NCBI GenBank assembly: GCA_003116995.1
Contig: BDSL01000120.1
Coordinates: 224,672-288,671, forward strand
Length of the DNA stretch: 64,000 nucleotides
Reading direction: 5' to 3'
Origin: Yamagishiella unicocca
Taxonomy: Eukaryota > Chlorophyta > Chlorophyceae > Chlamydomonadales > Volvocaceae
Made by a program: the position numbers and the translations under genes. The notes under the pieces are model-generated. The model saw only the letters and a list, made by a program, of their open reading frames with translations, had not been told where the DNA came from and ran no database searches. Positions 8,141-64,000 of this stretch are shown here, piece by piece. How positions within the stretch are numbered: the first letter of the stretch is position 1; each line of letters starts with the position of its first letter.

Positions 8141-8141
8141 T

Positions 8142-9780
8142 TGTTGTAACGGTTACAGTGGGTTCCAGACCAAGAGATAGAACGATCGGGCGCATCGCCT
8201 GACACTGAACAAGATGGAGGAAACAAAAACCGACCTGCACCGAAACAAAGGCAAACCACCAGAACACCAAAATGACAGGCCGTAGGCATACAGAGCAGCA
8301 GCCAGCACCCCAGGGGGAATTTGCACTAGAGGCTCCCCTATCAGGAACTGGCCACCAACCAACCTAACAGCCCAGCACCCGACGAACCAGTGAAGCGCCG
8401 CAACGATGCAAACATCGGAACCCGCCACCTCTCATCCCATAAGGCACGGACCCCTAGCAGGCCACCTCTCATCCCATAAGGCACGGACCCCTAGCAGGGC
8501 TCAACACGCCTATATAGCCAGAACGTATGAAGCACGGGAAACCCCGCTCCCCAAGACAACCCGAGCCGATCAGGAATCCACCAGTACCTCAGCCGGTCCC
8601 CCGCACACAAGGCGATTGGCGACAACCCGCAAGAAAGGATGCCGAGGCCCCACTGCATCCCAGCCTTTCTGGGGAAGTGTAGCACCGCTACACAGAAAGC
8701 ACACAGGAAGCCCCAGCCCAGCAAAGCCCCTCAGAAGGGCCCAAAACTCCACCACCCCACGGCGAACGGCACGATCCAGAAGACCACTACCCGGAGTAAG
8801 AGGGGGACCACCAGCCCCCGCCCTTTTCAAGGCCGCGGCCATAAACCGGCGCCCCACCTCCATGGCAGTAATAGCCGCCAGGACTACTACATCCCAGACG
8901 CAGGACTGTACGCCGGTAGGTGCTTGCACCAACCAAACTTGCGCCCGTGTCACCCCTGCACCGAGCTGGGTCTCGAGTTGGGCAATCACTGCGTGCTGTG
9001 TTGTCAAGGAGTAAACATACCCTGCCAACTGCGGCCATTGATTTGGGTCAATGGCTGTTGGTTGTGTACGTTGTGAGTCGATTATGAACCAGTCCGTCAT
9101 CCGTCGTTACCGCGATGGCGTGCAGGGGGCTATCCAGGTGTACTATAAAACCCATGTTGCGTGCGTGCTCCGGTAGACCTGCCAGGATGTTGTCGAGGCG
9201 GTCACCCGGCTGTACTCGCATGTTTGCGCTTATGGAGGCCAGGTGGGGCTTGGGCAGTGTGCCTTCCATGTCAACGAGGGTCACATTGTATCGCAAGTAG
9301 TGGTTGAGTATGAAAGACGCGTAGTTGCCACGCACTCGCGGCGTTAAAGGAGCTCCTCCAGGTTAATGCAGCGGCCGGCGGTCCTGCAGTGGTCAGGTGT
9401 ATCAGCATTGCGTTACAGTATGTGAGCACGTGTGACGGGTCGATGTGGCTGCCTCCCAGAAGGTTATTGACAGCGTGGACCATGCCGTGTTGCCGCCTTT
9501 GTGTTTCTTGGTACGGTAGGCTGGGGTGTCGCTTGTCAGGGGGCCGGGCGGGGGCCACTGGATGGCTTGCGGCAGCAGGCGGGGGGATTCATTTGGTCGC
9601 GCCGTAGCGTTGGCAGGTGTGGTGTCGTCTCCCCCCCTCAGGTTGGTGTCTGCGACACGTATTCGTTTTATGGTTGTCGGCGGGGGTCCGTGCTTGTTGC
9701 GGTTTTGCGTTGGTTGCTTGTCGCGTTGATGCATGTACGACGGGACATGAGCCCTCAATGACGGCTGTGAGCTGCCAGTG
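8142..9780 (-). mobile_element. LINE 3' half with Josephin-like C-terminal domain
   Basis: Minus-strand element with 3' tail at 8142-8500, then the ORF2 C-terminal region (about 8520-9060; CVWDVVVLAAITAMEVGRRF) and upstream of that a protease-like region (about 9060-9560). It has ETQRRQHGMVHAVNNLLGG, later SPLHAIAVTTDDG and WFIIDSQ. The spacing and order match the Gln, Cys, His and Asp/Asn elements of Josephin-type cysteine proteases. The residue aligned with the catalytic Cys is Gly here (GGC codon), and at least two frameshifts occur (near 9350 and 9080), so this copy is dead. The 5' part with reverse transcriptase is missing. Confidence 0.65.
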
Positions 9781-12177: not shown

Positions 12178-12620
12178 GAACCCGCCGCCCGCACACGTAT
12201 GTCCACGCTGTCACCCGCCGGCCGCACACATCTGTCCATGCTGTCACCCGCCGGCCGCACACGTCTGTCCACCCTGTCACCCGCCGTCCGCACACGTCTG
12301 TCCAGGCTGTCACCCGACGCCCGTACATGTCTGTCCACCCTGTCACCCGCCGTCCGCACACGTCTGTCCACGCTGTCACCCGACGCCTGTACATGTCTGT
12401 CCACGCTGTCACCTGCCGCCCGCACACGTCTGTCCACACTGTCACCCGCCGTCCGCACACGTCTGTCCACGCTGTCACCCGACGCCTGTACATGTCTGTC
12501 CACCCTGTCACCCGCCGTCCGCACACGTCTGTCCACGCTGTCACCCGACGCCTGTACATGTCTGTCCACGCTGTCACCTGCCGCCCGCACACGTCTGTCC
12601 ACACTGTCACCCGCCACCCA
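12178..12620. repeat. 33-bp minisatellite, about 13 copies
   Basis: Unit CTGTCCACGCTGTCACCCGC followed by CGTCCGCACACGT, 33 bp, with alternating variants (CCGCCGTCCGCACACGT versus CGACGCCTGTACATGT). As 33 is divisible by three, both strands stay open over 190-250 codons, giving 11-residue repeats (TRRPHTSVHAV on +, VTAWTDVCGRR on -). The open frames are most simply explained by the repeat period and are not called as genes. Confidence 0.9.
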
Positions 12621-15183: not shown

Positions 15184-15341
15184 CTAACCGTATGGGGTAT
15201 TGACTTCCAAGCATGTCCTGTACAAGGGGTTGTATTCATCCCCAATATTGGGACAACCGCATTCGGGCTCCCCGCCAGCCACTGCTGATGGAGAGCAGGT
15301 GGTAGAATCATCGCCACAGTAGGTCGGAACTTCACATTTGT
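15184..15341 (-). other. Terminal exon: six-cysteine C-terminus and stop
   Basis: 158 nt, entering in phase 1 after CATCCAG. It encodes 52 residues with six Cys: KCEVPTYC, TTC, ECGCP, RTCLEVNTPYG, then TAG. This is unlike the modules and may be a small disulphide-rich cap. No GPI or membrane signal is evident. Confidence 0.8.
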
Positions 15342-18300
15342 CTGGATGGGTGGGGCAACGGGGAAGAGGAAAACATTTAGTGTTTTCGTTCGTTAGTAGT
15401 ACTTGATAAATGGAAGCAATGTCATATATATATACAAGCAATGTCGTCATACATGCAAATAGCGACTAGGCTATCGGTCGATTTACGAACCAGTAGGGGC
15501 GCCCTTGAGCCATAAACATGCGCCACGCCAGAAGTTGCCTGAATATCTGGAGGACGATATCGACACGGTACTTGCGCCCTGCCCGGTGACGGGTACCATA
15601 GCCCCATTTGCCACCACGCTGTGCGCAGCATTATTTGTTGATTGGTCGGAGACCCAGGGATGACGCAGTGGTTAATTGGTATGGCGTCCGAGTGAGGATA
15701 AATGGTTCGTGCACGCATCAAACATGAGCATTTGTATGTATGTGTAATTCGAACCGGAATGGATTCTCTCACTGTCTACCTAATCTACAGCAACAATCTA
15801 CTAAGCATCATGTCTTAACATCCTCACTACAATAGTAGTAACTGTTACAGTACTGGGTTCCAGACCAAAGGTAGGGTACAGGGTACAGGGTACGTACAAG
15901 GTAACGTATTTCGCTGACTGCCGCGCTTCTAGATGTACCCCGCGGTCGCTCGTCTACATACTCCCTTCCCCCCACAACAGTGTAGCCATCCCGGCCCCAG
16001 TGTAGCAAACCCTCCCGGCTCCCTCCCCGGTGGAGCATGCATGCGGGCATGAAGGGGCGAGATGTAGTACGGATCACAGTAGTGCAGTGACTGCCCTCTC
16101 CCGGCCCCTACTTGATGACGGCGTCGCAGGCCGCATCCGCATCGCATGCGGCTAGTGCTGTTGTCATGTTGTCGTACGATTCAAATAGATCACCCTACAT
16201 GGCATTTCATGGAAACAGAGTATGCTCAAAATGCCGCCAAAGCGAATATGTACACAATAGAACTGAAAATAACAGGATAGTTGCAGCTTAAATAACATAT
16301 GTATGTGGCTGGGACCTATATATGCACATATACATGCAGGAACATGGGAGGCGCCCAATGGTATGTGGATCGATAGCATTAGGAGAAGCTGGTGTCGGCT
16401 GTGGACTTACATTTCCGCCCACGAAATTGGACACAGTTGTATAGCCTGGCTTGTCCGGGCACACTGCGTATGGATAGGCAATTGAGCAAGTGGAGGGGTG
16501 GCTGCTGACACCCAAGGCATGCAAAGGCACAGATAGATGCAAGGCGTGCAAAGGCACAGATAGATGCGAGCGATTGCAATTATGCATATCTTCTCAGACT
16601 TTGGAATCTTATCCCTGATCTAGTGTAAATGCATGTACGTACATCGATGGTCTTGAAACATTTCCGTGCGTATTGCTGGTTACATGTTGCATGCATGCTA
16701 TGGCGGTGGCATCACTTGTCAGCAAATCATACATTCCTTCACCGCCAGCCAGCATACTGGCCTTAGGTTTTAGGTTTAGAGGTTGTAAGTTATTTTTGGA
16801 AAAGATTCCCTATATATGCGACCAGCGAGCATTATCATTTCTATTTCTTGATGTACCGCATATTTTCATGCAAAGCTTCAGTAGTATACCTCAGCATAAA
16901 CGCCGGGCATTTACATGCATTACATAGGTCACATACACTTACTGAGCTCTTCTGTTGGCCTTGGGATATAGAGGCAGACGCCGTGGAAGTAGGTTCTGGT
17001 CACTTGCGGTTCGATTAACAGTTTCGAAGTGCTGTCCATAGGCACATGGAGCAGGGGCGGGAGACCTTCAAAATAAGGGGCGTATCAACCTATCCACGCT
17101 CACACATGTATCCAACTCAATTAATATACCTGTCCATGCACGCACGCACAATTCCCTGTCAACGGGTACATGCATGCCTCACTGGCCCTTCCTGACATAC
17201 ATTCTTGGACTCAGTGCCTTATAATGACCTCTCCCCTGATTATGAGAGCCCAACTACCTGGTGACGGCCTTGCACTCGGGGATTAGGGCACAATAAAACT
17301 TTGCAATTTCGAAGAAGCCCGGATCGTCGGCACTGAACTGGAAAACCTGGGAGGCAAGAGCGTTCGAGCAATTGAGCAGGAGCAAGCAGAGGCAGGGGAG
17401 ATAGAGCGTTACTTGCTGTTACTACAACAAGGAAACATCGCAGGGGGCAGCGAAGTGGGCAGCCTATCCACTTGACCCGTATAATATCCAGCCGCAGCTA
17501 GATCTGCTCTAATAAACTGTTGTATCACGCCTGTGTGGCGCGGTGCAGAGTTACGCCTGTGTGCAGGTGGCGCGAGCGTATAGGGTGTACTAACACCCTC
17601 ATCGCCCCGCCCCCGTAATACATGCTAGGCCTAGTGCCAGCGTACTCATTATTATTATTATTACGCCTGTGTGGCGTGACGGTCACTCCTGTGTGGAGTG
17701 CAACGGGTGCTTCGGCAACCGGGCGCACTGACTGCTGTGTGTCCGTCAGTGGTGGCTTCGACTACTGCCGTGGTAGTGGACCTGTGCGGTCCCGCTGATG
17801 TTTCATCGTTTGGAGGTTCTGGCTATGACGTGGCCTCGAGGACGTCGAACTGTGTGGACGACATCGGGCGCTTGCTGTCTAATAAGATGGCCCGCTCGCT
17901 CTTACTCTAACCGGTAGTTCTCACTACCAAACCTGGACTTTTGCTGGTATACTTTATAAACATGGATGTGTGTCCCGTCGCTGGATAGTGCGCTACGCAC
18001 GCGCACCCCAGCAGACTATTCACTTAACGTATACCCGTCATCCGCGGCGGCTTAGCATGCTGCTGTAAGTAAGTTAACACGCACACACGCAAGCAAGCAT
18101 CCATCAAGCATCCATGCATGCACCCATTTACGAGCGTCCACACACGTCCATGCACCCACCTTCAATTCGGTGTCAACTAGTGGTGCCTTGAAGCCGTATT
18201 GCATATCACATGCTGCATGCATACACATGGACCAAAGGGGCGGACGGGGGCGCGTGAGGGACAAGTGCAACAACTGCAATATATGACAACTACGGTACGT

Positions 18301-21300
18301 AGGTAGGCGAAGGTGACTGGGGATGATGGCATTGAGGTCACCATTTGCTTCGTTATTAGATATAAAATTTAAATCACAGGATTGTAGCTGTGCGAGACTG
18401 CCCTATATATGGCAATCATCATCGGACGTACAGTCCTCACGAATGCAACGAGGTGCATACAACGAGGTTCATTATGCACGACAGTATGCCATGGGTTCGT
18501 TCATAACGTCTTTATCCAAGAATGCTTCCTTCCAAGCTGCCTCCGGCTGTCCTGACCTCGCAAGCCTCATAATAGCCTTGTACTAGTAACTGAAAGAGGA
18601 TATGACTGTCATCATAAAACGAGGTCTATCTATTCTTGTGACATCTAGCTGGCATGTAAGATGTCATAAATGATCTCGTGAAACGCAGTACGTAGCCTCT
18701 TGCATATGCTTACTTGTGTCGAACTTAGTGTATACACATGTGCCATGTGAGTACACGAGGGCGGAAGTGGGAGCAGTCGCCGCCTTGAGCTGCCCCTTGC
18801 TGTGGCAAGGAAAAGGCAGGGCAGGAAAAGCGTTAGTAATAGGGTGCCGCGCGCGACACAGTTCAATAGCAGATAGGCAGATCTATACTTCATCATGTCA
18901 GCACTCCGTTGATGCTCTACTAGTCACACATGCAAGGTCACACATGTTGGATAATTGAATCACACGTGTACCTTGCTAGTCAAGATTTGGGGGAATGTAT
19001 GAGAATGGAAACAAAAACATTGCAAACAATGTAACCACATTCTATTCACTTGCCTTCCATGTTGATTGGAAATTCCAGTGGGCTTGCATTACTTACTGTA
19101 CATATCCCATCGGTGGTGTCATCCGAGTAGAGTACATGGCAAAAAATAGACCCAATTGCCAATCCTTTTGCCCGCATTCTTGCTCCCACGCAACACATCA
19201 CACTCGCCTGTTAAACCTGGTGCAGGTTCTGGCCGTGGAGCACTTCCCGTAGGCGACGGATTCGTTTTTAAGTGCGCTGATAGTGTAAGCCTGTAAGCAC
19301 GCAGCAAGTGGATGGGTTAGGTCCATTTGCTTCGTTGGCAAGTACATACGGTACGTAGCACATACGTAAAGCACGGTGGGAGTTGATAGAACGCGTTGCG
19401 GTTAACCAACAGATGGATGGAGAGAGGCATCGCTTCCATGAACTACTGCTGCTAGTTCGTTGGCATGCCAGCCACATACAAGCACAACAGCTGACCAAGC
19501 AATGAATACCAACTGATTGCCGAATGCCTCCTAACAATTCAGCCCCACTGACCGTCGGATAGTCGATGTCCGCGACAGCTGTGTAACCTAAATATGTACT
19601 GCATGCTGTGGGGAACAAGCGGTGGTGAAGGGCTTAATGTATAATCGGTATAGGGGTTCAGGGTGTAATAAAACGTCAATGTTATTTGACGGCGGAGGGC
19701 TTTAGGGTGCGTGATGCCAATATTTTGTAGTTTTGTTCATTACTGGTTAGGGTTGCCTATTGACTACTATTGATGTAGTCGATGACTGCCGTGCTGGTGG
19801 CGAGGGTGTTCCACGTGATCATCGGCCCATGCAAATTAAGTTTGAAAATAAGTCCTTCACCAAGCGTTGATAATTACTCGTCAATACCAAGTAAGCACGC
19901 GTCAGGATGCTTATATCAATCCCGCCGTCACCAGTCCCCAATTATGACGACGGAGGGTCCCATACGCATGCAGTACACGACGACGGTTCCAGTACCGTAC
20001 ACATCGAGGGAATGTGCTATCTACATATGAGCGACTTGGTTGGCACAGCTCTGCTGCCAAGACATACAGAGCAGAGGTAGGGTTCCAATTCGTTCAGAAT
20101 CGGATGAAGATAGGATTCAAAAATAAATACTAGCTGATATTTACAGGAGCGAGGACAGCCCTGACGTGATGTATTAAGAAAGGAAGCGTGGCATTGTTGA
20201 ACTTGGCAAACGTGGCAACTGCGAACGTGGCATCGCCATGCGTGATCTGGAAAAATCCTTAACAAACAGTTACCGCATACTTACCGGTAGGAGTCTTCGT
20301 GTATAAGCAGATTCCATGGGAGTACGTCGTCGACGAGCCCGCCGACGTAGTTTCTCCAAGGCTGCAGCAAGCGAATGATGGGGATAAATAGATTGGGTCA
20401 CAGATCATCGGCTACGCTGCAAGGATTGCAGGTTTGATCAGGAAGCCAATGAAGCCGCCAGTGGCCCCAAACATGTCTTTTGACATCTCATCTCATTCGG
20501 CACGCAGCGGTTGCAAGGTATACATGGTTGGTGTGGCTGGGGTTACAGTATATGTATGGTTGGCGGCTGGATGTTCGTTCGATTAGATAGGTCGAAGCAG
20601 CAGCCTACTAGCTTGCCATATGTTCGCACCTACATAAGGATGCGTTGGGGTTCGGCACGACAATAACCCTTTGGTAGTTATGTATGCTATCGCACTTAGT
20701 AGGTTGACATGGAATGATGCCATCATCACAGGTAGGATCGACCCTCATCAACGGCCAAAGGAAGGCGCGCGCGTGCCTTCCGAGGCCTCCCGGGGCATTC
20801 ACGTTTCCATGTCAGTGCACTACTATGTTCGCGAATGGGTAATGATGGAACAGGAATTTACCGACGTGCATAATTAACCCAAAACATTATAAATGTTGAC
20901 TACCTGTTGAAGCCCTGGCATGTTGTAGAAGCGGAGCAAGCTGCCATGGCATCAGCCGAAGTCGTGTAAACGGATGCGTCGGTGATCTGCACTTGTCAGC
21001 CAAGCATTAGACACCATGGTTCCGTGTTGATGAAGCCACATGCGTCCTTGTAGACATTTTGATCGGTAACGCAAATAAACGCAAATAAACGACCGGTCGC
21101 TCGTACGTGCATGTGTGCGCCCCAATACAGCTGTGAAATCACCACATACGTAAGTCCTAGTGGGATTGCTGGGTATGTATGCACGTATATTAATATCCAA
21201 CAATTTCTCGATCGAGGATTTGATTGTGTACGTACAGGTGGAGCTGACAAGCAACCAAACCCTAAGCCGACAAGCAACCAAGCAACCTACCGCAGCAGTG

Positions 21301-24300
21301 AAGTCCGCATCCACCTGGTACCCAGGCATTGGTGGGCAAACTGCACCATATTTACCAATCACGAAGTCACACACGCACGCACAAGGGAGTATCAATTATC
21401 TAGCCGGAATCGACTGCAAAATAAGATTTTTATGCTAACCGTCGGCGTCTTGCCACAAGGCTGTTTGTTTGCGAAGGAACGAGTAAGAGATGACGCTGCA
21501 CGCATGCATGCCATCTGCTAGTATGTACGTATGTAAGTATGAATGAATCACACGTGCCTCGAGTGCCTAAGAAATCCTTATTACTTTGTTCAAATCCTAA
21601 CAGATGGAAACATACCTACTTACGTACGTACGTAGCATGTAGGTTTGAGCGAACGAGCACCTTGCTTGGATCGATTTCACCCCTTGCCGCCAACTAACAT
21701 TCGTTATACATGTGTACACTTGTAAACGCTCTCACTGGATGGATGGATGGATGGATGGGATAAACATTAATAACCCACCTGTAGGTATCTTTGTGTAGAA
21801 GCAGACACGCCGGATATAGGAAAGGGGGAACGCAGCTTGCTTGGTTACTCCCCCGCTGTAGACCACATCATCAGGACGCGGCGGGTGCGTGGGAGCGAGA
21901 GCGAGCGCAGTCAGCAGGCGGTTCATTCCCATCCATTACGTTCAAATGCCAAGGCACGAATTGGACGTCACCCACACCATAACTATGTCCCCATGGCACC
22001 TGGTGTATGTTCATTGCTGGAAATGTCGCCCGGTGCTGTGGGTGGAAGAATGTGTCTATCTCCCCCCAAAAAATAGCTCGCTCACGGCCCACGCAAAAGC
22101 CCAAACGAGCTAAAGTACAGGAAAAGGTCCATACATACCCGTCCTTGCATTATTATTAGCAGCATGGCTTTTCCACCGCAAATACGTATCAAGCGAGACG
22201 GACATGATAGGAGTTGAATGCGCATTTAGCAAAGTAGTAAGGCTGGCATCATTCAGGTTGAGGCGAAAAATCGTAGATCAATCTATCCTCTTGGGGACAC
22301 TGACCCACAATGAGATATTAGTAAGGAAGCTATCATTCTAAATGAAATAGTCATGTCTTCAGATTCCTTCTGAAACCCTAGGCCTGTGGCCGATGCAGCA
22401 AACCAATGACACTGCCAGCCTGAAGCCTGATATACGTAGTTTCGTACTGTAATATATATCCGGAGTATGTAGCTCTCTACCCAACATAAGTAGGGGAAAA
22501 ACATGCGTATGTTAATACATAGTAGTACAACGCGCTGTGCGTGGCTTACCTGCACTTCGAGCATGCAGTACTCCTAATCTTACCTGCTGAATCCCAAGCA
22601 GTTGATGTCAGTTTCACACGAAGACAGAGCCTGACCCGTTGTCGGGTAAGTGCCAAGCGCTGAACCTGCCTGTCGTTCATCAAGTCACGTGCGCGCGGAG
22701 ATTGGCGCGGAGAATCAGTTAGCATACATAAGTTTCTATGTAAATACATAGCTTTCCATCTAAAAGGCCAATGTAGCCCGCCCAGTCATACGCAATCATC
22801 CTGTATACATACGTATTTATATATGGCCAGACATAATCGATATCCCAAACAGTCACTCGTGCATCCATAAGGTTAGTCGGGTGTTTTAGGTAGGACAGTC
22901 ACAACAGGCGGCCTTGAGGTCGGTTATAATCAACATAAAAGCCGGGGCTAAACCCAGCTAATAAATACATATATACATGGCACAGAAAATTCTTTAAAAG
23001 AGCAGAGACACTCGCCGGGCACGCAAAACCAGGACATAAATATGGCTAGCGGGCCGCATTATGCCTAAATATGGCAAGCGGGTCGCATTATGAACAAGCT
23101 ATCTAAAGCAGCAAACAAGATAATAAGCAGCTGCTGTCCAGGTAGTGGATGCACATTACGGGCGGCAGGAGTGCGCCCGAAGAATATAACAGGCCAGTGT
23201 GTAACCATGCAGGGACGGATGGAAGATTAAAGCGTAACTAAATGTTACTGAAAGCTAACGAAGTACAGCGAGCATACGTCACCTATCTACATACCGTGAC
23301 TACATCGGTATCCGGTGCACCAGTGTAGCCAGTTATGGCAGTGCAGGCTGAATGTAGCAAGCGCACCAGAAATAGGGCGATAGGTCAGTGAGGGGAAAGC
23401 AAGCAAACATCACCTGGTGGCTACGTAGATAGGATACGACGGGAAGGGACGGGAAAGGGTACATGCATGATGAAATGTCAAAACTCAGGATGCAGGAAGC
23501 ACTGCTGACCCGTATGTTTCAAGGCAACGAATACATACGATGCCGGGCGGCGGGTAAACATACCTGGCTGAAATTTGGTGTAGAGACATACGCCGGGGGT
23601 GACGACCACGGCTTTAGTTCTTGTCTTCGTCGCCCCCAAACTATGATGAGTAAATGCAGCGAAACAAGGTAGATCGTTGCAACAGAAGTAAGTAAGGGTG
23701 GATGAAACGTATGCCATCAGGTACGTAACAAGGGTGGATGGTATGTACGTGTACGCGTACATCAGGTACGTAACAAGGATAGGTCGTCATCACGCACGCA
23801 CAGCACATACAAGCCAGGCAGTGCATACGTACGAGCGTAGCAGTGCGTGGAAGCAAGGTAAAGGTACGTAAAGAAATGATTAATGACTTCCATCTCGCCA
23901 GTACTTTCAGCGGTGGACGGGTGAGGTCGATGTATGGCGATGATATCATCCTACACGCTTTGACGTTTTTACCGTCGACGGTAGGTGTAAGCATCTTTGT
24001 CAATTGAATTCGCATGAACGAGCGAGTTCAGGTCATCATGCATCTTGCCTATCACCCGGCAGCTGGGGATAAGCCATCAATTTGCATGTTTGGTCCATCT
24101 GGTTCATTGATTGCTGCCAATGCGTGCAGATTGCGTACCTGTTGAAGCCAGCGCATGATTCATCCTGCTCACAATTTCGATATGCGAGCATGCCGGTTGT
24201 GTAGTTGCCGATGGTGGCCTCGCCTGCTGTTTCCTAATAATCGAGCAAACGATTGATGGGTTTTGGGCACATTGTTGATGGGTTCATGGTTGGGTTGTGT

Positions 24301-27300
24301 TGTGCAATAAACACACATTAAAATGGGAAAAGCACTTGATTGCTGGGTTACTTGTGAGTGCCCAACTGAACTACAATTTATGTTTCGTAACGATCAAAAC
24401 ATCGCTTACATCCAAATCGTCAAAGCGATTACACGCTGCACCATATGCAGCAAATAAAAATAACGCAGACGACATATGCAAGTGCGTGAGTCAAGTAATG
24501 AAGGCCCCAGCCATTCATGTGCATAAACTAGCATGCTTACGGTCCGTAACGCCGAAACGCCGTGCAGACTTGCACTGACCTGGACATTGTAATCAACCTC
24601 GGCGATGTAACCAGAATATTGGGGGCAGGCTGCGAGCGAGCGATTAACACGCACGCACATGACAACGACGAACGTAAGAGTCATCAACAAAGCGGCAGCC
24701 GGTTATGTAGTTGTCATGACATAAGCCGCCATTGGAGGGGCTGCTTCTCATCAGCTTGCATGTACAAATAATATCAGCTTGCATGTACAAATAATAACAT
24801 CAGCTTGCATGTACAAATAAAGGTAAACCCGCTTCTTGCAGCCAAGAAGCGGCCGGGTCACCTGGACCAGATTAATATGAAGCGCGCGCTGCCCTATTGT
24901 GGGTATTAGCGAACTAAAGAGAAAAGGCTTGCAAACATGGGAAGGGCGAAGGTTGCGGCGGCGCTTCTCATAATTTAAGATAGATGAAGTAAGCGCCTAT
25001 CTACTAATCCAGTCCAGGTGTATCCACGCTTCACTCGCTCAAAATCTTGCTTAACTAGATGACGTTAGTTCGGTGCGGTGCATACGTACGGCTATTAAGT
25101 CATCCGCCGTTAGCCGGTGCAGCGACTTCAATTCGACCTACTTCGACCACCACGCTACGCTACGCTCACATATGCATCGCGTTTTATGCACTTACAGGTT
25201 GGGACCTTGAAGTAGATGCAGCTGCCCGTAGAGACAGCCAACGTGGCTACACTTGACTTCATTTCCCACATGCTGCCGAGCGTACATACATACATGCATC
25301 ACGCGACATGATATTTGAAGAGGAAGAGGAAGTTAAACGCTAACATTATGTCGAAACCAGCAAATAAAGCGCCCGATCCCTAGCTACCTGGGGTCATATT
25401 GATGCTTATTTACTTCCATTTCAGAGGTATTCGAGCGTACGTTGATTAACTTCAACACGTTCAAAACGAATAGGGATGGACCCACAACAGAAGGTAGGCC
25501 ACACAACCGTGCACCTGCTAGCCATGCAGGCGCAGCTGCGTGCCGGATTTCTTCCAAAAGTGTTCAAGTGAACTATCTACAGTACGTATGGCCCGCCCCA
25601 GCACTACCAGCACTACACCCATCTAACGCAAAATTAATGCATAAATAAATAAACGATGCCATTTCGTTCTTCCCACCTGTTGACGGCCTGGCAATTCAGA
25701 TCCGCCTTGCATGCCGCCAATGCGGCATCCAGAGACGACTCTGTGCGTATGGTGTCCCCCTGTCAGGGTATAGGCGGCAACAAAAAGTTGTGAACAAGGG
25801 CTCGTTAGTAAATAATTATTAGGGCTCGTTACTCCTTTGGTATACCCGAGTGCAGAAGGGTACATCGGTGCAGCATGCATGACAAGCCACATCTCCCTTT
25901 CTTAAACACCAGCACTGCAAGTATAACTCTGCCACAGACGTTTTGCTGCCGGACAAAATATGCATTTAGAAGTAACGAAAAATGAAGCCGACATGCATAG
26001 CGCATGCATCATGTTGTACGTAGGAAGGGGCACGAAGCAGCAGCTGGATGGATGGCAGAGGTGGAAATTGTACAGGAGTGTTTTTTGATTGGCTTATTTT
26101 CATCATCACTAACGCCATCACTAACGCCACTGTCGCCTGTTACCCGGTGTCGCCAGTTACTAAGTATTACCGAGCGATATACACAATGATAGGTACATAT
26201 TAAATGCACAATCGAAGGGGCAGGATTGCTCGTCATGAGTTTACGAATGCGCTTTATATATACGTACAAACTTCGTATAACTACATCTGTTACTGCGCTA
26301 CATACATTGCCATATGTTCTGTTAACATCACCCAGCTAGCCATACATGTATATATACATACCGAGTGATCGAAGCCAGGGAGGGATCGGTACCCCAGCTT
26401 GGGCACTTGGGTATTGCAGACGCCTTCGGGATAACGCGGGTACCGCAAGGCAACGAGTACTACTGATGATGGCCTAAATGTACATGAAGACATGCATATA
26501 CATATAGGTACAAAACCATATGAACGATGCCATTAATATGTCTAGCCATATAAATCCCATGTGCATGCATGCAATACATGTATGCATACATATGAGGAAG
26601 CAGCTGCAGGACCCTGTTGCATCCACGCACGCACCAAGCAACCTACCGTCAACAAATGCTCCCCGAACATAGAAGCAGGTTCCTCTGGAGGCCGCAAGGG
26701 TCTGTACAGAAGACTTCGTTTCCCACAAGCTGTTGGGATCGGGTAGTTCGGGCCAACGAAGCAAGTAAGCGAGCGAGAAAGACAACCAACGCAGACACCG
26801 TGTACTACTGTCGTTCATACATACCCGAGCAAGGGGTAAAGTGCGTACGCATCCGTCTGTACCGCAGTGAGTAGCACGCAGGCGCACTGCTGATGCACGC
26901 ACAGTCGTTGTTACATGACATGTTGGAATGTATGATAGGCTTAAATACATACATATGCATATGCACATAGTCATGGGCACGTCAGAGATGGTGGCGCTAC
27001 TTATTATCATTATTGTAACGATCCACGGCATTGGCCAATTGCAAATTAATAAGCAGTTGATGCGTGTGTGCGACATAAATGATAATTAGCACACCTGTTA
27101 AAACCATAGCAGCTTCCACTTAACATACACGTGTCATATGCGCTGATTGCTGTTGAGCGAGTGGAGATAGTATCACCCTGCATATACACGTAGTATGTAA
27201 TAAATACGTGCATAGGCATACATTGAAGACGGAACAAGATTGATTCGCTGTCAATTGCAAGCAAACGAATGAGCGCAAAGTCGCTTAATAGTACGTCGTT

Positions 27301-30300
27301 CATGCGTTCACATCATACATGCGCGTTCACACCATACATGCGTGCGTGTTCACTTCATCTAATACTTCGGCATCTCCCCCAGTTTGTTGTTCAGCTACTT
27401 GCTTGCAGTATGTGCATATACATTTCTGATCTCATGTGTTCCCATTAACAGTAGTATGCATGTCTAAATCTACTCCTTAGACAATGAACCCAATGTCAGC
27501 TATCTAGATGAAATGAAAGCCTACATGACATATCTCAAACCATGTAAGGCACGCACGCAACTGACCGAGTGGTCGAAGTCGTATACCGTAATGAAGCCGG
27601 ACATCTTCTGGCACACGGCTGTGGGTGCATGCAACACACAGCAGGTAGCGAGAACATATGGACGACGAGGCAGCCATGACTTTGCGAATGAAGCAGTCCT
27701 ACTTTATTCGTTAATTGCGTGAAGGGTCACAACATAATTCATTAAGCAATATCTATCGCAGTGCCGTGGGCATACTACATGAGGCGAAGAGGACAGATCG
27801 TCTCAAAAGAGGATCTTTATGTTTGTTATGGTGTAATCTATCGATGCCTACACAGGCAGGGAGGACGGGGCGGTAAGCTGACGCCTTGATTCGCTCGTTC
27901 TTACCATTCGTAATCTTGGTGTAGAAGCACGAAAATCTGGAGAAGTCCAGGGGGCTGACCACCGACTTGGTTTCGCCCGCACTGCATATGTATATGACGA
28001 GTTAAAAAACACCATGCAGAAGCGCACGCCTTAATTCAATTATGTTAACCCCATCCGCAATGTGGCGTAAATATATTAAATATATTTGCCCCAACACAAA
28101 TCTGGTAAACGGCATGCATGGGCCTTCATTGTCAGCCAAGCATCAAGCGGTTATGCGGTGAATTGTTAGGCTGCTGATTATGCGTTTGTGTGCGGTGACC
28201 AACGAACATAGCACCTACCCGTTAAATCCCTTGCACGAGTGATCGGTGTCGCATGCGGACATGGCGGCGCCCACATTTGCATGGGTTGCAATCGTGTCTC
28301 CCTTTCATCATTGAATATGAAAGATGTTAAGGATGAAGGCGCACAAGGACAAAATATTTAAGGGGGCGGTCCGAGTGAAAATGGATGGGCTCCACGATGT
28401 AGTGGGATGCACAATGAACAATTCGACATATTTCAGCTTGTACATATGTATTAAGTAGTGCAGACTCGTCGCAAGCGAGCAAGCAAGGTGGAACCCACGG
28501 TTGGGCTGCTGATGGTTTGGTTGACATACAATCGAAGCTTTGAACGGATGCAGCAGGTAGTATTATGCGGGCATGAGAAGTAGACGTGGGGTTTGCAGTT
28601 GCAGCGAGCATTTTAGTAGTTGCATGCAGTACTACTTGCGGGCAGCAGCAGTCATCCGAGCCGCGCCCCAGCAATTAGTTAAAATTCTACATGTATTCAG
28701 TATATTAAGAAACGCGCCATACATATTCAGAACGCAAACCGGCGGGCCGCCACCATAAGCTTGCCAGGTAATATAAGGGTAGGTACGCGCATCTTTCTGT
28801 GAAATAATGTGGAACGACGTACGTACGCATACCTACCTAGCGACCACATTTAAGGATTGCTGGATACAGGCCGGCGCAGACTGCGTGCTTGGACCCAAAC
28901 CTACATAATCTTGCTACGCCTAACCAATCCCTTCCTGCTGCCCGCCCGCTAGCGTTCACTACATTGGACGTTGAGCTCACTAACCACGTGATTGGCGTCA
29001 AGCGATCGTGAATAGCCGGTCCGCTTGGGGCAATCTGCACGAGATGGGGTGGCCGAGTTTTTTATTCCATTAAGCAAATTGGATAAACGCCGAAAGAAAG
29101 CGAGAGCGAGCGAGCGAGGCTAGCAGGTATACGTAGATATATGCTGATGTGCGAAATCAGGCGGCCATCCAGCAGATATAGTACGTAGTGCGTGCACCAG
29201 AAGCGACTTTGGCTATATATCTAGCTAGCTACCTACCTATGTACTAGATAGATGTAGTGCCATAAGCGCACATACACGCCGATCATAATGCATGAACAAT
29301 TAAGTACCTTTTTGAACCTTCTTGTAGAGGCATGTACCAGGTGCGGAAATCGAATCTCTGACAATTGCCTTGGTAGATCCATCGCTGTTCCGGCGCCGGG
29401 GAGGTATACATACGCAGCAGTAGTCGGCGGGGTTATTATCCCATACATATTTATTCGGTCTCCCATGTTACTGCACGCGGTGCGGTGCAGGTGTAAATGT
29501 AGGACTGAATCCGTCCGCCCCTCAGCTCCCCACCCCCTTAATAATACACGCCAGGCTCCGGTCGGCGTATTATTAATGCACACCAAGCACGCACGCAAGT
29601 GCTTAGCATCCTATAGCATAGGATGCCGTTTCTGTAGTAGGGCAGGCATATCGATGATGACAGCAGGGTGTATGGCCATACATACGTACACTGTGAAATA
29701 CTCGAACGCTGATTGTATAAACTCGTTCATATTATTTCCACTATCATTGGAAACTCGCACCTGGTAAATCCACCGCAATTTGGAAGAAGGTCACATTGGG
29801 ATCCAGCCGTGTTAGCATCTGCATGCACGCTGATATCGTCCCCCTGAAGCATTGGTCCAACACCGGCACGACATGAAAGTGGCAGGGAAGAAGTAATAAC
29901 TACGCCAGTCGTTAGTTGCTTGGTATGTATTTTTTTTAAATATGTCGTCAGCCGCCAATCAATATGTACGAATACACGCATATTAGGGATCTTTTGAAGT
30001 TGAACAACGCTCAAATACTTCTGGAAATAGATCAGCAACATTACAACCCCAGGGATCGGGCGCTTTGCTGGTTTCAACAGGATCATTGGATAATCGCACT
30101 TTGTAAGCGCGCGCGGGTATATGCGTGCGACTATACAGATGGCACATGAATGCCTCGTAAAGCACAGGGTAAAGCAAGAACGGCGGAGCCCTACGTATCA
30201 AAATAGACAATCCAGGCGGTTATAGCCCCAACGCCGGAAAAGGCGGCGGGACCAGTCCGTGTCTCGGACCCGCGGACCCACGGCACCGCCCACCCGTTGA

Positions 30301-31399
30301 AAACGCCTTCCCCAAACAACCGGCCGGCGAAGGGAACATTTAGATAGATACGCACGCAAGCCCTCCGTCTAACCTTGCCTCCCATAAATGCTTAGGCGTT
30401 ATTTATTAGGACGTTTCACTACTAAATATAATGACGTTACAGTTAATTGTTGTTACGTGCCGTATGGTCCGTGTTGGGCGCCACCATGTATCCCAGCCTC
30501 GGCGGGCAAGCTGCATGCAAGCAGCAGGCAGCGGGCAGGGAAGATAGGTTCGACGGTTAGGATATATGGAAAGAGACTGAAACACATCACGCACAACGCA
30601 AGGGTGTCCATCAGTTGATTACTATTTTATATGCACAACGCCAGCCGGGCATGAGGCTGTACAATAGAGTGTCACGCACTAGTCCGTGGAGCCTAGAAGC
30701 GGTAAGGCAGGTTTTGGCGTTGTCCACACTCGTTGCGATCCGGGAAAGTTGAAAGGAAGATGGAGGTGACGACAGTGTCAGCTCCGGAGAAGAAGAGGCG
30801 TGCATATGCGTGCATGCGGCACTAGCTATTACTGTAACTGTATCATTACTGATGAGAGGCCACAGTGTACTATAACACCAAAATGTATGTACTACGGATC
30901 TTTACAGCGTGCAGCAGACACGCATTTCTTCACGCTGGGATGGCGGGAGTTCTGGACCGCCGACTTCGGCTGTCGCCGCCGATGTCGGCAGCAGCTAGGT
31001 AGCTTTTCTGTGCTCCTCGGGGCGTCTGCTGGGTGTAAGCAAGCCCCGGCCGTCGTATGCATGGTGAGGCCCGGCAAGGGCCCCTACCTCTTCTTCCTGG
31101 GTTCGTTCGGCCGGGCTTGGGGACACTGTAACACTTCTATTAAACGTTATGTAGCCCCACCTCACGAACAATAAGTAATCGGGGGTCGGGTTCATGGGGA
31201 ACCGAGTAGGCCTACAGCCGGCTGCCGCAAGGAGGCGCAGAGCGAGGTCGCGCTCTATCGACGCACGTCGGGTGATTATCATCGATCGCAGCCGACACAT
31301 ACACTCACCACCAGCGGCTTCGCCATACGTGGCAAGGATTCCAGACGCCACGCCCATGATGGCGACTCCGAATAAGAGTTTAAGGGCCGGAGGTCCCAT
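15184..31399 (-). CDS. Secreted protein with ten PAN/Apple-like four-cysteine modules (32 exons)
   Basis: Assembled by hand from 32 minus-strand exons with AG acceptors and GT donors (two GC donors). It totals 2400 nt, about 799 residues, without frame breaks; exon coordinates are in the module entries. Order: signal peptide exon, ten modules, six-cysteine C-terminal exon with stop TAG at 15186-15184. Each module has one Cys near its start (CPxxxGY), an invariant C-x5-C followed by (G/A/R)(F/V)(N/T), and a final Cys in (C)(F/L/I/V)Y(T/K/F/V/M). That is the pattern of PAN/Apple domains (compare their CxxF and CYLK motifs), which bind protein or carbohydrate ligands in other proteins. Secreted or cell-wall/matrix location is inferred from the signal peptide; no transmembrane segment was seen. 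Start chosen at 31399-31397 because the only upstream in-frame Met would hide the signal peptide. PAN assignment is by pattern only. Confidence 0.85.
15436..16463 (-). other. Module 10 of PAN-like protein (3 exons)
   Basis: Exons 16463-16411, 16194-16112 and 15503-15436 (53, 83, 68 nt). Landmarks: CPDKPGYTTVSNFVGGN; GDLFESYDNMT; CDADAACDAVIK; AICMYDDIA. Exon c is the shortest of its class. The b/c intron contains a LINE 3' tail (about 15838-15890). Confidence 0.8.
15838..15900 (-). mobile_element. LINE 3' tail inside intron of module 10
   Basis: On + it reads GTAACTGTTACAGTACTGGGTTCCAGACCAAAGGTAGGGTAC, the reverse complement of the family tail, followed by three GGGTACA repeats. Confidence 0.6.
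16943..18212 (-). other. Module 9 of PAN-like protein (3 exons)
   Basis: Exons 18212-18160, 17337-17258 and 17031-16943 (53, 80, 89 nt). Landmarks: TCDMQYGFKAPLVDTE; FSADDPGFFEIAKF; CALIPECKAVTR; GVCLYIPRPTEEL. The a/b intron is enlarged by a G+C-rich insertion (about 17525-18060). Confidence 0.8.
17525..18060. mobile_element. G+C-rich insertion in intron of module 9
   Basis: Differs in composition from the surrounding intron. Contains repeated CGCCTGTGTGGCG and CTCCTGTGTGGAG palindromic words (17527-17700) and a 70-codon open frame on + (17698-17910). Looks like an inserted non-autonomous element; no terminal repeats or transposase were identified. Confidence 0.4.
18714..19605 (-). other. 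Module 8 of PAN-like protein (3 exons)
   Basis: Exons 19605-19553, 19290-19208 and 18799-18714 (53, 83, 86 nt). Landmarks: ACSTYLGYTAVADIDYP; AYTISALKN; CSTARTCTRFNR; GTCVYTKFDT. Exon b ends at a GC donor (GCGAGT, 19207-19202) while its 83-nt length and phase are conserved. Confidence 0.8.
20285..21340 (-). other. Module 7 of PAN-like protein (3 exons)
   Basis: Exons 21340-21291, 20986-20904 and 20361-20285 (50, 83, 77 nt). Landmarks: VCPPMPGYQVDADFT; CSASTTCQGFNR; GICLYTKTPTG. Confidence 0.87.
21779..23347 (-). other. Module 6 of PAN-like protein (3 exons)
   Basis: Exons 23347-23295, 22669-22584 and 21855-21779 (53, 86, 77 nt). Landmarks: ACTAITGYTGAPDTD; GSALGTYPTTG; CETDINCLGFSR; RVCFYTKIPTG. 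Confidence 0.85.
23564..24629 (-). other. Module 5 of PAN-like protein (3 exons)
   Basis: Exons 24629-24576, 24226-24139 and 23640-23564 (54, 88, 77 nt). Landmarks: CPQYSGYIAEVDY; GEATIGNYTTG; CEQDESCAGFNR; GVCLYTKFQPG. The a/b junction is the one place in the ten modules where intron phase 1 fits better than phase 0. Confidence 0.8.
24752..24822 (+). repeat. 23-26 bp tandem repeat, three copies
   Basis: ATCAGCTTGCATGTACAAAT repeated three times at about 24752, 24774 and 24800, with AATA/AATAAC linkers, 5' of module-5 exon a. Confidence 0.85.
25196..26423 (-). other. Module 4 of PAN-like protein (3 exons)
   Basis: Exons 26423-26362, 25759-25677 and 25272-25196 (62, 83, 77 nt). Landmarks: GVCNTQVPKLGYRSLPGF; GDTIRTESS; CKADLNCQAVNR; GSCIYFKVPT. 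Confidence 0.85.
26647..27618 (-). other. Module 3 of PAN-like protein (3 exons)
   Basis: Exons 27618-27566, 27177-27095 and 26729-26647 (53, 83, 83 nt). Landmarks: VCQKMSGFITVYDFDHS; GDTISTRS; CMLSGSCYGFNR; GTCFYVRGAFVDG. Exon c is six nt longer than usual. Confidence 0.85.
27905..29034 (-). other. Module 2 of PAN-like protein (3 exons)
   Basis: Exons 29034-28988, 28301-28219 and 27981-27905 (47, 83, 77 nt). Landmarks: DCPKRTGYSRSLDANH; GDTIATHANVG; CDTDHSCKGFNG; FSCFYTKITNG. Closest to the module consensus. Confidence 0.85.
29308..30510 (-). other. Module 1 of PAN-like protein (3 exons)
   Basis: Exons 30510-30461, 29843-29761 and 29384-29308 (50, 83 and 77 nt). Peptide landmarks: ACPPRLGYM; GDDIS; CDLLPNCGGFT; GTCLYKKVQK. 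The first donor would be GC (GCACGT at 30460-30455). A GT donor 4 nt further (30456) breaks phase with the exon-b acceptor, so GC-AG splicing is preferred. Confidence 0.65.
31000..31140 (+). repeat. Dispersed repeat, inverted copy of 33283-33420
   Basis: The reverse complement shares CCCCAAGCCC, GAAGAAGA, GGCCCTTGCCGGGCCT, ACGACGGCCGGGGCT and CACCCAGCAGACGCCCCGA in order with 33283-33420. It lies in intron 1 of the PAN-like gene. Confidence 0.7.
31309..31399 (-). other. Exon 1: signal peptide
   Basis: ATG at 31399-31397; the peptide starts MGPPALKLLFGVAIMGVA and ends around ATYGEAAG, a basic residue followed by a hydrophobic core and small residues, as in a cleavable signal peptide. Donor GTGAGT at 31308-31303 gives phase 1, matching the first module exon. 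Confidence 0.8.
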
Positions 31400-32029
31400 T
31401 TCCAGCAGCTGTGTGTAGACAGCGGCGGGAGGAGACTGCCAGCGTGCGTAGACAAGACGATTGATCTTTCGGTATGTATTACTGAGCTTGAGCGATCTGG
31501 CAAATTTATATGAATCCGTCCCCGGCGTCGAAACGCTGTACTGCATCAAATTAGCGCCAGACTACTCGACGCCGTACACATTGCAGGTTTTCTTCGCTCT
31601 CCTACACAACAGCCCAAAAGGGGAGTCGGTAAATGGCAGGGGGACGAGCCCAGCAGGACAGCCACAACCCACACAGATGTACGTGCCAACCGCCATGCGA
31701 TCGTCGTAACTCTTCGTAACATTCCGTCGTCACGAGCAAGTGCTCCGTAGGCTAATATTTGAATTGTTGGCGGGAAATGGGCAGCCTGTCCGCCTACAAA
31801 CTTGTAGACAGTACCCCAGACCTACGATGCGGCTGCCATACCACAAGGAATGCTTGCCACCTGCCAAATCTTGCTTCCTTCGGTCCCTTTAACCTTGCCT
31901 CACCTACGACTCGCGACGAAGCTGTTAACATAAAAGATGATATAGTGTCCCTTCTTAATACGATTCAGCACCATTTGATACTAGTGCATTGGTGAGAAAC
32001 GCCAACAAATGCATTATTCACACTGCAGG
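31400..32029. other. Upstream region of the PAN-like gene
   Basis: Should contain the minus-strand promoter and 5' UTR. No clear TATA box or coding exon on either strand was seen. Confidence 0.4.
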
Positions 32030-38229: not shown

Positions 38230-39770
38230 GGGCGTGCGCCTCCACTGCGTGCATCGCTCCATGCCTCCGCCGTTCATACCGGTAGTACCAGTAGGGAGCA
38301 TGCACCAATAGTGCCGATCAGCCCGCCGACAGCTGATCCTGGTCACTGCGCCGTATCAGAATGTTCATTATATTCGTTGTAACGGTTACAGTGGGTTCCA
38401 GACCAAGAGGTAGAACCATCGGGCGCATCGCCTGACACTGAACAAGACGGAGGAAACAAATACCGACATGCACCGAAACAAAGGCAAACCACCAGATCAC
38501 CAAATTGACAGGCCGTAGGCATACAGAGCAGCAGCCAGCACCCCAGGGGGAATTTGCACTAGAGGCTCCCCTATCAGGAACTGGCCGCCAACCAACCTAA
38601 CAGCCCAGCACCCGACGAACCAGTGGAGCGCCGCAACGATGCAAACATCGGAACCCGCCACCTCTCATCCCATAAGGCACGGACCCCTAGCAGGGCTCAA
38701 CACGCTTATATAGCCAGAAAGTATGAAGCACGGGAAACCCCGCTCCCCAAGACAACCCGAGCCGATCAGGAATCCACCAGTACCTCAGCCGGTCCCCCGC
38801 ACACAAGGCGATTGGCGACAACCCGCAAGAAAGGATGCCGAGGCCCACTGCATCCCAGCCTTTCTGGGGAAGCCCCAGCGCAGCAAAGCCCCGCAAAAGG
38901 GCCCAAAACTCCACCACCCCACGGCGAACGGCGCGATCCAGAAGACCACTACCCGGAGTAAGAGGGGGACCACCAGCCCCCGCCCTTTTCAAGGCCGCGG
39001 CCATAAAACGGCGCCCCACCTCCATGGCAGTAATAGCCGCCAGGACTACTACATCCCAGACGCAAGACTGTACCCCGATAGGTGCTTGCACCAACCAAAC
39101 TTGCGCCCGTGTCACCCCTGCACCGAGCTGGGTCTCATTATATATGTGCGCAAGTCGGTCACATTTTGGCTGCGTGCCTGCGACGCCTATTAATAGCCCG
39201 TGCATCGCTCCATGCCTCCGTGCCCGGAAACGGTATGAAGCATGCACGAATGTCGATCAGCCCGCCGACAGCTGATCCTGGTCACTGCGCCGTATCAGGA
39301 TGTTCATAATATGTTTACGCAAGTCGTTCACCTACGATTGCGTGCCTGCAAACGCCCATTCGCAGCCCGTGCATCGCTCCATGCCTCCGTGCATGGTACC
39401 GGTAAGGAACATGCACGAGTGCCGATCAGCCCGCCGACAGCTGATCCTGGTCGCTGTATGTACCGCGTCAAAATGTTCAATATACATACATGTGCGCAAG
39501 TCGTTCACTCGTGATAGCGAGCATGCGTGCGACGCCCATTCGCAGCTCGTGCATCGCTCCATGCCTCTGTGCACGGTACTGGTTGTACCGGGTCGGTTGT
39601 ACCGCCGGTAGGGAGCGTGCACGAGTGCCGATCAGCCCGCCGATAGCTGATCCTGGTCACTGCACCGTCACAGGAAGTTTGTTAAATGTGTACGCAAGTC
39701 GTCCATCCACCCGTGATTGCGTGTCTATCGGCGACGCCTATTCATAGCCCGCGCGTCCCTTCGCGAACGT
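38230..39770 (+). repeat. About 170-190 bp satellite array, split by a LINE
   Basis: Units carry GTGCATCGCTCCATGCCTCC (38251, 39200, 39368, 39548, degenerate near 39748) and GATCAGCCCGCCGACAGCTG. Spacing 168 and 180 bp; the 38251-39200 gap equals about one unit after subtracting the LINE at 38378-39138. Confidence 0.8.
38378..39138 (-). mobile_element. 5'-truncated LINE inserted in the satellite
   Basis: Same family as 8142-9060: 3' tail at 38378-38700 then the ORF2 C-terminal region (CVWDVVVLAAITAMEVGRRF). CATTATAT is present at both edges (near 38369 and 39136) as a probable target-site duplication. Confidence 0.85.
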
Positions 39771-42011: not shown

Positions 42012-42119
42012 GACGAGGTGGCCGAGCGGTCTAAGGCGCTAGTTTCAGGACTACCTGAAGATTGTCAGGAGAGTACTTACTAGTCCGTAAGGGCGCGGGT
42101 TCAAATCCCGTCCTCGTCA
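42012..42119 (+). tRNA. tRNA-Leu (CAG) with intron
   Basis: Acceptor stem GACGAGG pairs with CCTCGTC (42112-42118), discriminator A at 42119. D-arm GGCCGAGCGGTCTAAGGC with internal A-box. Anticodon arm CTAGT-TTCAGG, interrupted after position 37 by an intron of about 28-29 nt, closing with ACTAG. Class II variable arm CCGTAAGGGC, T-arm GCGGGTTCAAATCCCGT. Anticodon CAG reads CUG, Leu. All stems are intact. Confidence 0.9.
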
Positions 42120-62355: not shown

Positions 62356-64000
62356 CAGGCCCAGCAGCGCCAGCAGCTAGCAGCGGCGCGAAGTGGACCC
62401 ACGGGTCCTCGTTCGCCAGTCAGCACCGCCAACATGCGGCGCACCATCAGCACCCGCCTGTGCGGCTGCCCGGCCGTCACGTTACGAAGCAATATTGATC
62501 CGTCGTGGGGATCTATGTCTTGAATAGTTTGCGATTTGACGTCTTGAATAGTCTGCGAGGAGGAACTCCATGACTGTGTCGTTCACCGGGTAATTACCGG
62601 AAGTCTAACCGTCCAGTGCGCATGCGGCACGCCAGTATAATAATGAAGTGCGATATGTTAGTCTGTGTACATGCTGAATACCTAAACAATATAGTCTTCT
62701 GTCGCCGTGCCGTGAGCTTCCACAGGCCTTGTAGTTTGCGCATCTTGGATTGCTTGTAAACCAGGCAAGCCTGGTTGAAACCTAAACTTAAATTCCACAA
62801 CCAAATGAGAATACGATGCCCGCCTGCCTTCTCTTGGCTGGTGGAAGAAGTAGAAAGGTAGCGTAGGAATACTTTTGCATACCTTCCTGCGCTGCCTGCA
62901 TCTTGCAGCAATATTGGGAAGGACACGACCACTAGATTCTCTCGTGGAGGCGACAGCGGCAGGCTGCTGTGCTGCAGTCGGCGGACGGTAGGATGGCGCG
63001 AAAGGCATTCGGATACCAGCAAGTGGGCCTGCTGCGCGAGGACCTGGCTCTCGGCACATCGACGATGCTACCCAAGGCAGCTTCGGGTTTGTGCTGGTTC
63101 CAAAGGTTATCAGGGCCACGCTGGTGGCTGCGGACGTGTGCGTTCGGACAAACCGTGCTTCCACAATCCCCAGCCCAGCGCGCTTCATGGCTGCACGTTG
63201 CGAGCCTGCTGCGATTCGCCGTGCCCTGTCACGCTTGTACCCTGTATCCCACTACTCCTCTACTCTTACATTTCGAAGCTGCCTTGCCGAACTTGCTGCC
63301 AGGTGTGCCTCATCTCCCTCCCCTCCGGAGACCGGCCGTGGACAGCACCTTCGGGTCCTTGGTTGGGCCGCTCGACGCCTCAGGCATGCCAAAAGCCCTC
63401 TCCTAAGCTGACGAGGACGGGATTTGCACCTGCGCCCTTACGGACTCGTAGGTTTCCTTCCTGATACTGCACCAGGTAGTCCTGAAACTAGCGCCTTAGA
63501 CCGCTCGGCCACCTCGTCATGCTACTCTTCGATGGCCTCATCACAGTCGCTTCAGTCCAACCCGCATTGTGTGCACGCACGACTGGGGGGGGGCGGGTGC
63601 GGAAGGGGGAGCGGGTTGTGGGGGGCGTCGGGGTTGACATGCTGGAGGAGCCGCGTATCGCCGGATGTGACGCCGGTGTGGGGCTGCCATGCAGAGGCTT
63701 TCGCGGCCAGGGTATTCGGGTGCGACATGTGTCGTGGAACACCCCTGGAGTGGGAATCCTTACCCTTGCGCTTAACGTGCCCGCTTGCCCTGCGAAGAAT
63801 CACAGTTGTTAGTGTGGAGCAGGGCCAGGGGACGCTGCTTTGGGCGGTAGCGTCCGCTTTCTGCACGGGCCTCCATTTCGGACGGATCCAAGTGCGATAT
63901 CGCGCGGATCCAGAGCATGTTTGGATTCAAGCTCAGAGTTGCGGCGCAGGTCCGGCCGGGCAGTGCTGCGCCGGAGTTGGAGTCCCGGTGAGGCGGTGGC
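62260..64000. repeat. Segmental duplication, unit 2
   Basis: See unit 1 at 59400. Runs to the window edge. Confidence 0.8.
63409..63518 (-). pseudogene. tRNA-Leu-like sequence, degenerate
   Basis: Minus strand GACGAGGTGGCCGAGCGGTC... and TTTCAGG, an intron-like segment of about 31 nt, then CGAGTCCGTAAGGGCGCAGG and CAAATCCCGTCCTCGTCA. The 3' anticodon stem is ACGAG, so it no longer pairs with CTAGT, and the T-loop has TGCAAAT for TTCAAAT. Probably a non-functional copy of the 42.0 kb gene. Confidence 0.75.

Follow-up and report, generated by a model that had tools for sequence, protein, structure and literature searches.

Among the described systems closest to the present gene is the WSC domain (PF01822; yeast Wsc1), a divergent family of the PAN/Apple fold that has extra bridges of its own and belongs to cell-wall proteins; two bridges, reportedly conserved across PAN/Apple domains, link the Wsc1 helix to a strand, and the strand order of the fold is given as 1-5-3-4-2, which makes strands 1 and 5 neighbors (PMC9024836). 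As far as the relevant excerpts extend, a PAN/APPLE-like protein is present in the spent medium when Chlamydomonas leaves the palmelloid state (review, PMC6952985), the wall proteome of Scenedesmus includes an Apple-domain protein (PMC11839794), cell integrity in a fungus depends on a wall protein that has two putative PAN modules (PMC3338822), and secreted proteases of Aphanomyces carry accessory PAN domains that are described as binding regions (PMC10084794). Neither the present gene nor a module of its kind is described in the excerpts of the open-licence literature on PAN, Apple, or PF14295 in green algae.

The gene examined here lies within a 64-kb window, the whole stretch of DNA that was analyzed. 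It probably encodes a secreted protein with a signal peptide, ten modules derived from PAN_4 (PF14295), and a six-Cys tail, acting as a multivalent binder of the wall or matrix. Judged by sequence, the modules are most likely divergent, cysteine-rearranged relatives of PAN_4 and not standard PAN/Apple domains. The host had been taken for a green alga, and this can be narrowed to a volvocine by the at least 161 matches in its genome to DUF3707, which we take to be the pherophorin domain, restricted to volvocine algae.

Exon structure of the gene

The gene was rebuilt from the raw sequence, without the earlier exon list, by collecting open stretches with C-x5-C and adjoining splice sites and then chaining them. 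This gave 32 exons and 31 introns on the minus strand, running from 31399 to 15184 in a single ATG-to-TAG frame. The 32 minus-strand exons and unbroken frame of the preliminary description were therefore recovered, with 824 residues in place of about 799, and of the exon size range reported there the upper bound (158 nt) was reproduced, the smallest exon being 50 nt and not 47 nt. The features are as follows.

31505..31510, minus strand: TATAAA box, candidate core promoter by position only, 111 bases upstream of the ATG
31309..31399, minus strand: exon 1, with the ATG and a signal-peptide-like hydrophobic stretch, ending in phase 1 (rebuild, hydropathy)
29308..30510, minus strand: module 1; A1 30510-30461 (GC donor), B1 29843-29761, C1 29384-29308 (rebuild, HMM)
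27905..29034, minus strand: module 2; 29034-28985, 28301-28219, 27981-27905 (rebuild, HMM)
26647..27618, minus strand: module 3; 27618-27566, 27177-27095, 26729-26647 (rebuild, HMM)
25196..26423, minus strand: module 4; 26423-26362, 25759-25677, 25272-25196 (rebuild, HMM)
23564..24629, minus strand: module 5; 24629-24580, 24233-24139, 23640-23564 (rebuild, HMM)
21779..23347, minus strand: module 6; 23347-23295, 22669-22584, 21855-21779 (rebuild, HMM)
20285..21340, minus strand: module 7; 21340-21291, 20986-20904, 20361-20285 (rebuild, HMM)
18714..19605, minus strand: module 8; 19605-19553, 19290-19208 (GC donor), 18799-18714 (rebuild, HMM)
16943..18212, minus strand: module 9, among the two most divergent; 18212-18160, 17346-17258, 17031-16943 (rebuild)
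15491..16463, minus strand: module 10; 16463-16411, 16194-16112, 15618-15491 (rebuild, HMM)
15184..15341, minus strand: last exon, with the six-Cys tail (EGF-like Cys spacing 5, 6, 11, 1, 13) and the TAG stop

As modelled, each module is encoded by an exon triplet, A (phase 1-0), B (0-2), and C (2-1), with the patterns CP...GY....D, GDTI...A...C.....C.GFN, and ..TK......G.CLYTK.PT, respectively; chaining required the phase rule 1-0 / 0-2 / 2-1, so this regularity is partly built in. The introns are 149–813 nt long (median 408), 29 of them GT-AG and two GC-AG, the latter following exons A1 (30461) and B8 (19208). The A1 donor (ACG/GCACGT, with the slash at the exon border) is weak, and the 3' end of exon A1 is the border of lowest certainty. 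The GC fraction is 0.604 at third codon positions versus 0.477 in the introns. In a sequence scan past the stop codon, the first TGTAA, the algal polyadenylation signal, was found 1052 bases away. The secreted-type start proposed earlier is supported by hydropathy alone, the 15-residue maximum being 2.34 near the protein start versus 1.54 elsewhere.

A phase-free test was carried out with HMMs from modules 1–5, modules 6–10, the odd modules, and the even modules, which were run over the six frames of the 64-kb window. The four half-trained sets recovered exons of modules outside their training sets, though not all of them. Exons B6, B7, B8, B10, C6, C7, and C8 were matched by the HMM from modules 1–5 at E values of 2e-5 to 0.08, and A6 and A7 only at 0.8 and 5, with A8, A9, A10, B9, C9, and C10 absent from its matches in the six window frames. 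No exon of module 9 was recovered in the window by this HMM; the module was found by the two models trained with it (6–10 and odd), and the even model detected its C exon only (E 1). Across the four HMMs, the best match in the window outside the modelled exons had an E value of 0.14. Because phases were imposed during chaining, it is this cross-training test that supports the gene model independently. A helix-exon pattern, composed after the exons had been seen, occurs at 10 minus-strand sites in the window, all within this gene, and at none on the plus strand; 100 first-order randomizations of the region averaged 0.01 sites each. The gene model is real and well supported.

Elsewhere in the window, a 33-base tandem repeat of 13 copies has open frames on both strands (12180-12619), and similar frames (CKFPLGCWLLLCMPTAC...) at 6779-7111, 7894-8325, and 38346-38558 constitute an interspersed repeat. 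Matches to tRNA were seen at 42012-42119 (plus strand) and 63409-63518 (minus strand); at 108 and 110 bases, these could hold an intron.

Modules and their relation to PAN domains of the host

The ten tandem modules are about 70–88 residues long, with pairwise identities of 19–44%, modules 9 and 10 being the most divergent (19–34% identity to the others). Their invariant columns are C, G, A, C, C, and C. The ten four-cysteine repeats with invariant C-x5-C of the preliminary description were found again, with 4 Cys in each and A-x3-C-x5-C in 10 of 10. Going by sequence, the cysteines of one PAN core pair, namely the second helix Cys and the Cys of the next strand (C-x5-C), are present in all ten. 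The first helix Cys of the core, four residues before C-x5-C, is replaced by Ala in every module, and no further Cys separates the third from the last, so that the second core pair is absent throughout and its bridge cannot form. Two cysteines are added in each module, one of them ahead of strand 1, the other within strand 5.

Such a module would keep the PAN fold of five strands and one helix, under an assumed layout of strand 1 at GY..., strand 2 at D..GDTI, the helix at A...C, strand 3 at C.GFNS, strand 4 at TK, and strand 5 at C.YTK. The helix–strand bridge (C-x5-C) would be retained, the second core bridge would be lost (helix Cys to Ala and strand 4 without Cys), and a new bridge would join the start of strand 1 to strand 5, with cysteines probably paired 1-4 and 2-3. 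The latter bridge would resemble the extra bridge of Apple domains, which pairs the domain ends. The array may have grown by repeated, long-past duplication of an entire set of three exons with phase-1 introns at either end; duplication of the whole unit is the simplest history because the two intra-module introns lie, as modelled, at corresponding places in the ten modules. The six cysteines of the tail conform to a loose EGF spacing rule that 103 of 20000 residue shuffles also fit, and no Pfam family, EGF models included, matched the tail at E <= 10.

A check with the HMMs of PF00024 and PF14295, suggested beforehand, was run and went against the expectation: no Pfam PAN family, these two included, matched the whole protein or any of the ten modules at E <= 10, nor did NCBIfam PAN models match the modules at that threshold. 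Only chance-level hits to unrelated families, at E values of 0.03 or worse, were returned by Pfam for the protein and modules and by NCBIfam for the modules. Searches of the protein database reach only relatives sharing exact five-residue words and so provide weak evidence of absence; no relative was seen among at least 7999 candidates scored for the full protein, 206 for the module alignment, or 129 for residues 440–554. The full protein had no solved-structure relative in the PDB by sequence, and the module profile returned two antibody chains only (E 0.3–0.4), neither being a relative.

At E <= 10 the host genome yields 50 PAN_4 matches; all lie outside the window, and 15 exceed the curated cut-off, two of these only jointly with neighbors in the same frame. 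Twenty PAN_4 loci were fetched. Six domains from contigs C85 and C103, chosen for a common layout (GY..(D/E).D.D(Y/F).G.DL ... C(K/Q)A.CD..(P/S).C..FM(F/Y) ... CW.K ... K.(G/S)E), formed the comparison set; the others were six near copies of these and eight of other layout, which were kept out of the profile. Three loci on C103 and C85 (L030, L031, and L032) hold clusters of PAN_4-type domains with a single exon per domain and phase-1 borders, and several of the domains are nearly identical in sequence, pointing to recent duplication.

When the ten-module profile was compared with the six host domains by HHalign, a probability of 87% was obtained (E 3.8e-6, score 33.5), in a match spanning 39 columns beyond the cysteines (GY..D.D..G.D); in the global alignment, strand 5 of the modules (CLYTK) falls on the SWTK-like strand of the six. 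None of 200 full column shuffles (maximum 19.7) and none of 200 Cys-fixed shuffles (maximum 16.1) reached 33.5, and the reversed profile scored 10.3. Scored singly, the six host domains gave 20.2–27.2 and two four-Cys modules from contig C43 gave 20.5–21.0; the maximum for 220 Cys-rich decoys with at least 4 Cys was 15.4. Only 3 of the six chosen domains pass the PAN_4 cut-off, and HHalign gave 47% (E 1.9e-4, score 25.2) against these three alone and 83% (E 8.8e-6) against the three below it. The eight domains of other layout scored 9.8–19.7, 3 of them above the best decoy. These comparisons slightly weaken the case for PAN_4 and slightly raise that for convergence; taken together, the modules resemble one branch of the host PAN_4 repertoire and not PAN at large. 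When the module HMM was run on 32 fetched loci, most of which had been chosen for PAN matches, the top matches were such PAN_4 domains (E 0.0025–0.044). The PAN/Apple identity claimed earlier is thereby upheld as regards the relation to one host PAN_4 layout and the phase-1 borders, and not as regards a Pfam match or the second core Cys pair.

Three PAN_1 domains on low-GC contigs gave a weak HHalign result (4%, P 0.009), and one of them scored singly 13.9, inside the decoy range. A scan of viral contigs with the 1045-residue frame of L007 confirmed no further PAN_1 domain. Five loci on C172, C259, C1118, and C176 (L001, L002, L003, L007, and L008) are low in GC (44–50%), with long intronless frames of up to 4985 residues in near-identical copies, and have the appearance of giant-virus DNA inserted into the algal genome. 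PAN_1 is carried by L001, and L007 has PAN_1, PAN_3, PAN_4, and proline-alanine runs; it also gives sub-threshold matches to B_lectin and Fascin.

Intron phases were compared at the domain borders. For the C85 and C103 domains, an open frame with AG and GTGAG both in phase 1 was present in 13 of 13 listed occurrences from five loci, which overlap, so that some occurrences are counted more than once and the distinct domains number fewer than 13; some rows offer more than one suitable AG. In most rows the acceptor is placed one codon upstream of GY. In the present gene, 8 of 10 modules have the acceptor one codon upstream of their first Cys; in modules 3 and 4 the distance is two codons. The modules end in phase 1 and contain two further introns. 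Both C43 modules have a phase-1 acceptor one codon upstream of the first Cys and a donor of phase 0, not 1.

Probable role and alternative readings

The C43 modules, a single four-Cys PAN_4-like module at each of two neighboring loci (L036 1245-1502 and L039 6851-7108), were found by the module HMM over 11 kb (E 0.0004 and 0.001, respectively); the one that was run against Pfam matched PAN_4 at E 0.0027 with 18.2 bits against a cut-off of 27. On the same strand as the L036 module, about 1.3 kb further downstream, is a stretch of the papain family (PF00112, E 1.8e-9); module and stretch may form one gene. Around the second module, a GCGSC motif in one frame was all that was seen. A stretch in a neighboring frame of the C43 locus had no Pfam match.

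The likeness to PAN could be convergence of an unrelated, lineage-specific four-Cys repeat on a short GY..D / C-x5-C..F pattern. This is unlikely: the lack of any Pfam PAN match, the loss of two of the four core cysteines in all ten modules, decoy-level scores for 5 of the 8 other-layout PAN_4 matches, and three protein searches devoid of relatives would all fit it, but the HHalign match takes in 39 columns beyond the cysteines, Cys-fixed shuffles stop at 16.1, well short of 33.5, decoys with at least 4 Cys stop at 15.4, and phase-1 borders flank both kinds of module. It is very unlikely that two or more adjoining genes, or a decaying array, have been read as a single gene. One start with a signal-like stretch, one stop, and 824 stop-free codons argue for a single gene, as do the 40 of 40 module cysteines kept and the 31 of 31 junctions in phase as modelled, against which stand the divergence of modules 9 and 10 and the two GC donors, one of them weak.

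The same architecture might also do another job: the secreted protein could inhibit papain-type proteases bearing a similar module, or dock with them. The two C43 loci, one with the papain-family stretch, suggest this, but the link between module and protease is itself drawn from neighboring exons at one locus, and we regard such a partnership as quite unlikely. In excerpt, the accessory PAN domains of secreted proteases are themselves presented as binding regions (PMC10084794).

Relationship to one host PAN_4 layout remains the preferred reading of the modules, and the protein is likely to bind glycans or glycoproteins of the wall or matrix multivalently. Attachment of this kind would be its most likely work by analogy with the PAN/Apple reports from walls, medium, and secreted proteases: ten weak carbohydrate or glycoprotein contacts in series would together fasten it firmly to wall or matrix polymers. 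A part in adhesion, matrix, or recognition, as proposed in the preliminary description, is plausible but inferred.

Comparison with known PAN/Apple systems

A broader proposal is put forward tentatively, as possible but short of probable: that the modules constitute a separate disulfide class of PAN/Apple in which a bridge between strands 1 and 5 takes the place of a core bridge, that this class spread in volvocine algae by phase-1 module shuffling and tandem duplication, and that it serves both in binding arrays and beside secreted proteases while being invisible to current domain libraries. If true, a class of algal extracellular modules escapes the domain libraries, because the modules are cut into exons of ~50–130 nt and have lost cysteines on which PAN models rest. 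Duplication of modules bounded by phase-1 introns is usually discussed for animals. The array would be a case of it in a green alga with relatives that serve as models for how multicellular matrix arose.

The modules share one of the two core Cys pairs with canonical PAN/Apple domains (PF00024; HGF, plasminogen, and factor XI). The first helix Cys of the canonical domains is Ala in 10 of 10 modules, the Cys at the partner position is absent, and PF00024 is unmatched. The WSC domain has eight cysteines, both core bridges, and a long loop 5, and the modules give no WSC match. The PAN_4-type domains on C85 and C103 begin, like the modules, with GY....D.D..G.DL, followed by a helix, C-x5-C..F, and a hydrophobic strand 5 ending in K, and they too have phase-1 introns at their borders, but each occupies one exon, whereas a module occupies three; moreover, they keep the helix C-x3-C and the CW.K of strand 4 and lack a Cys in strand 5, unlike the modules, which have another cysteine set. 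The C43 modules share with those of the array the four-Cys layout and the phase-1 acceptor just before the first Cys, and differ in that they are present as a single copy per locus with a phase-0 donor and, at one locus, an enzyme domain alongside, whereas the array contains ten copies.
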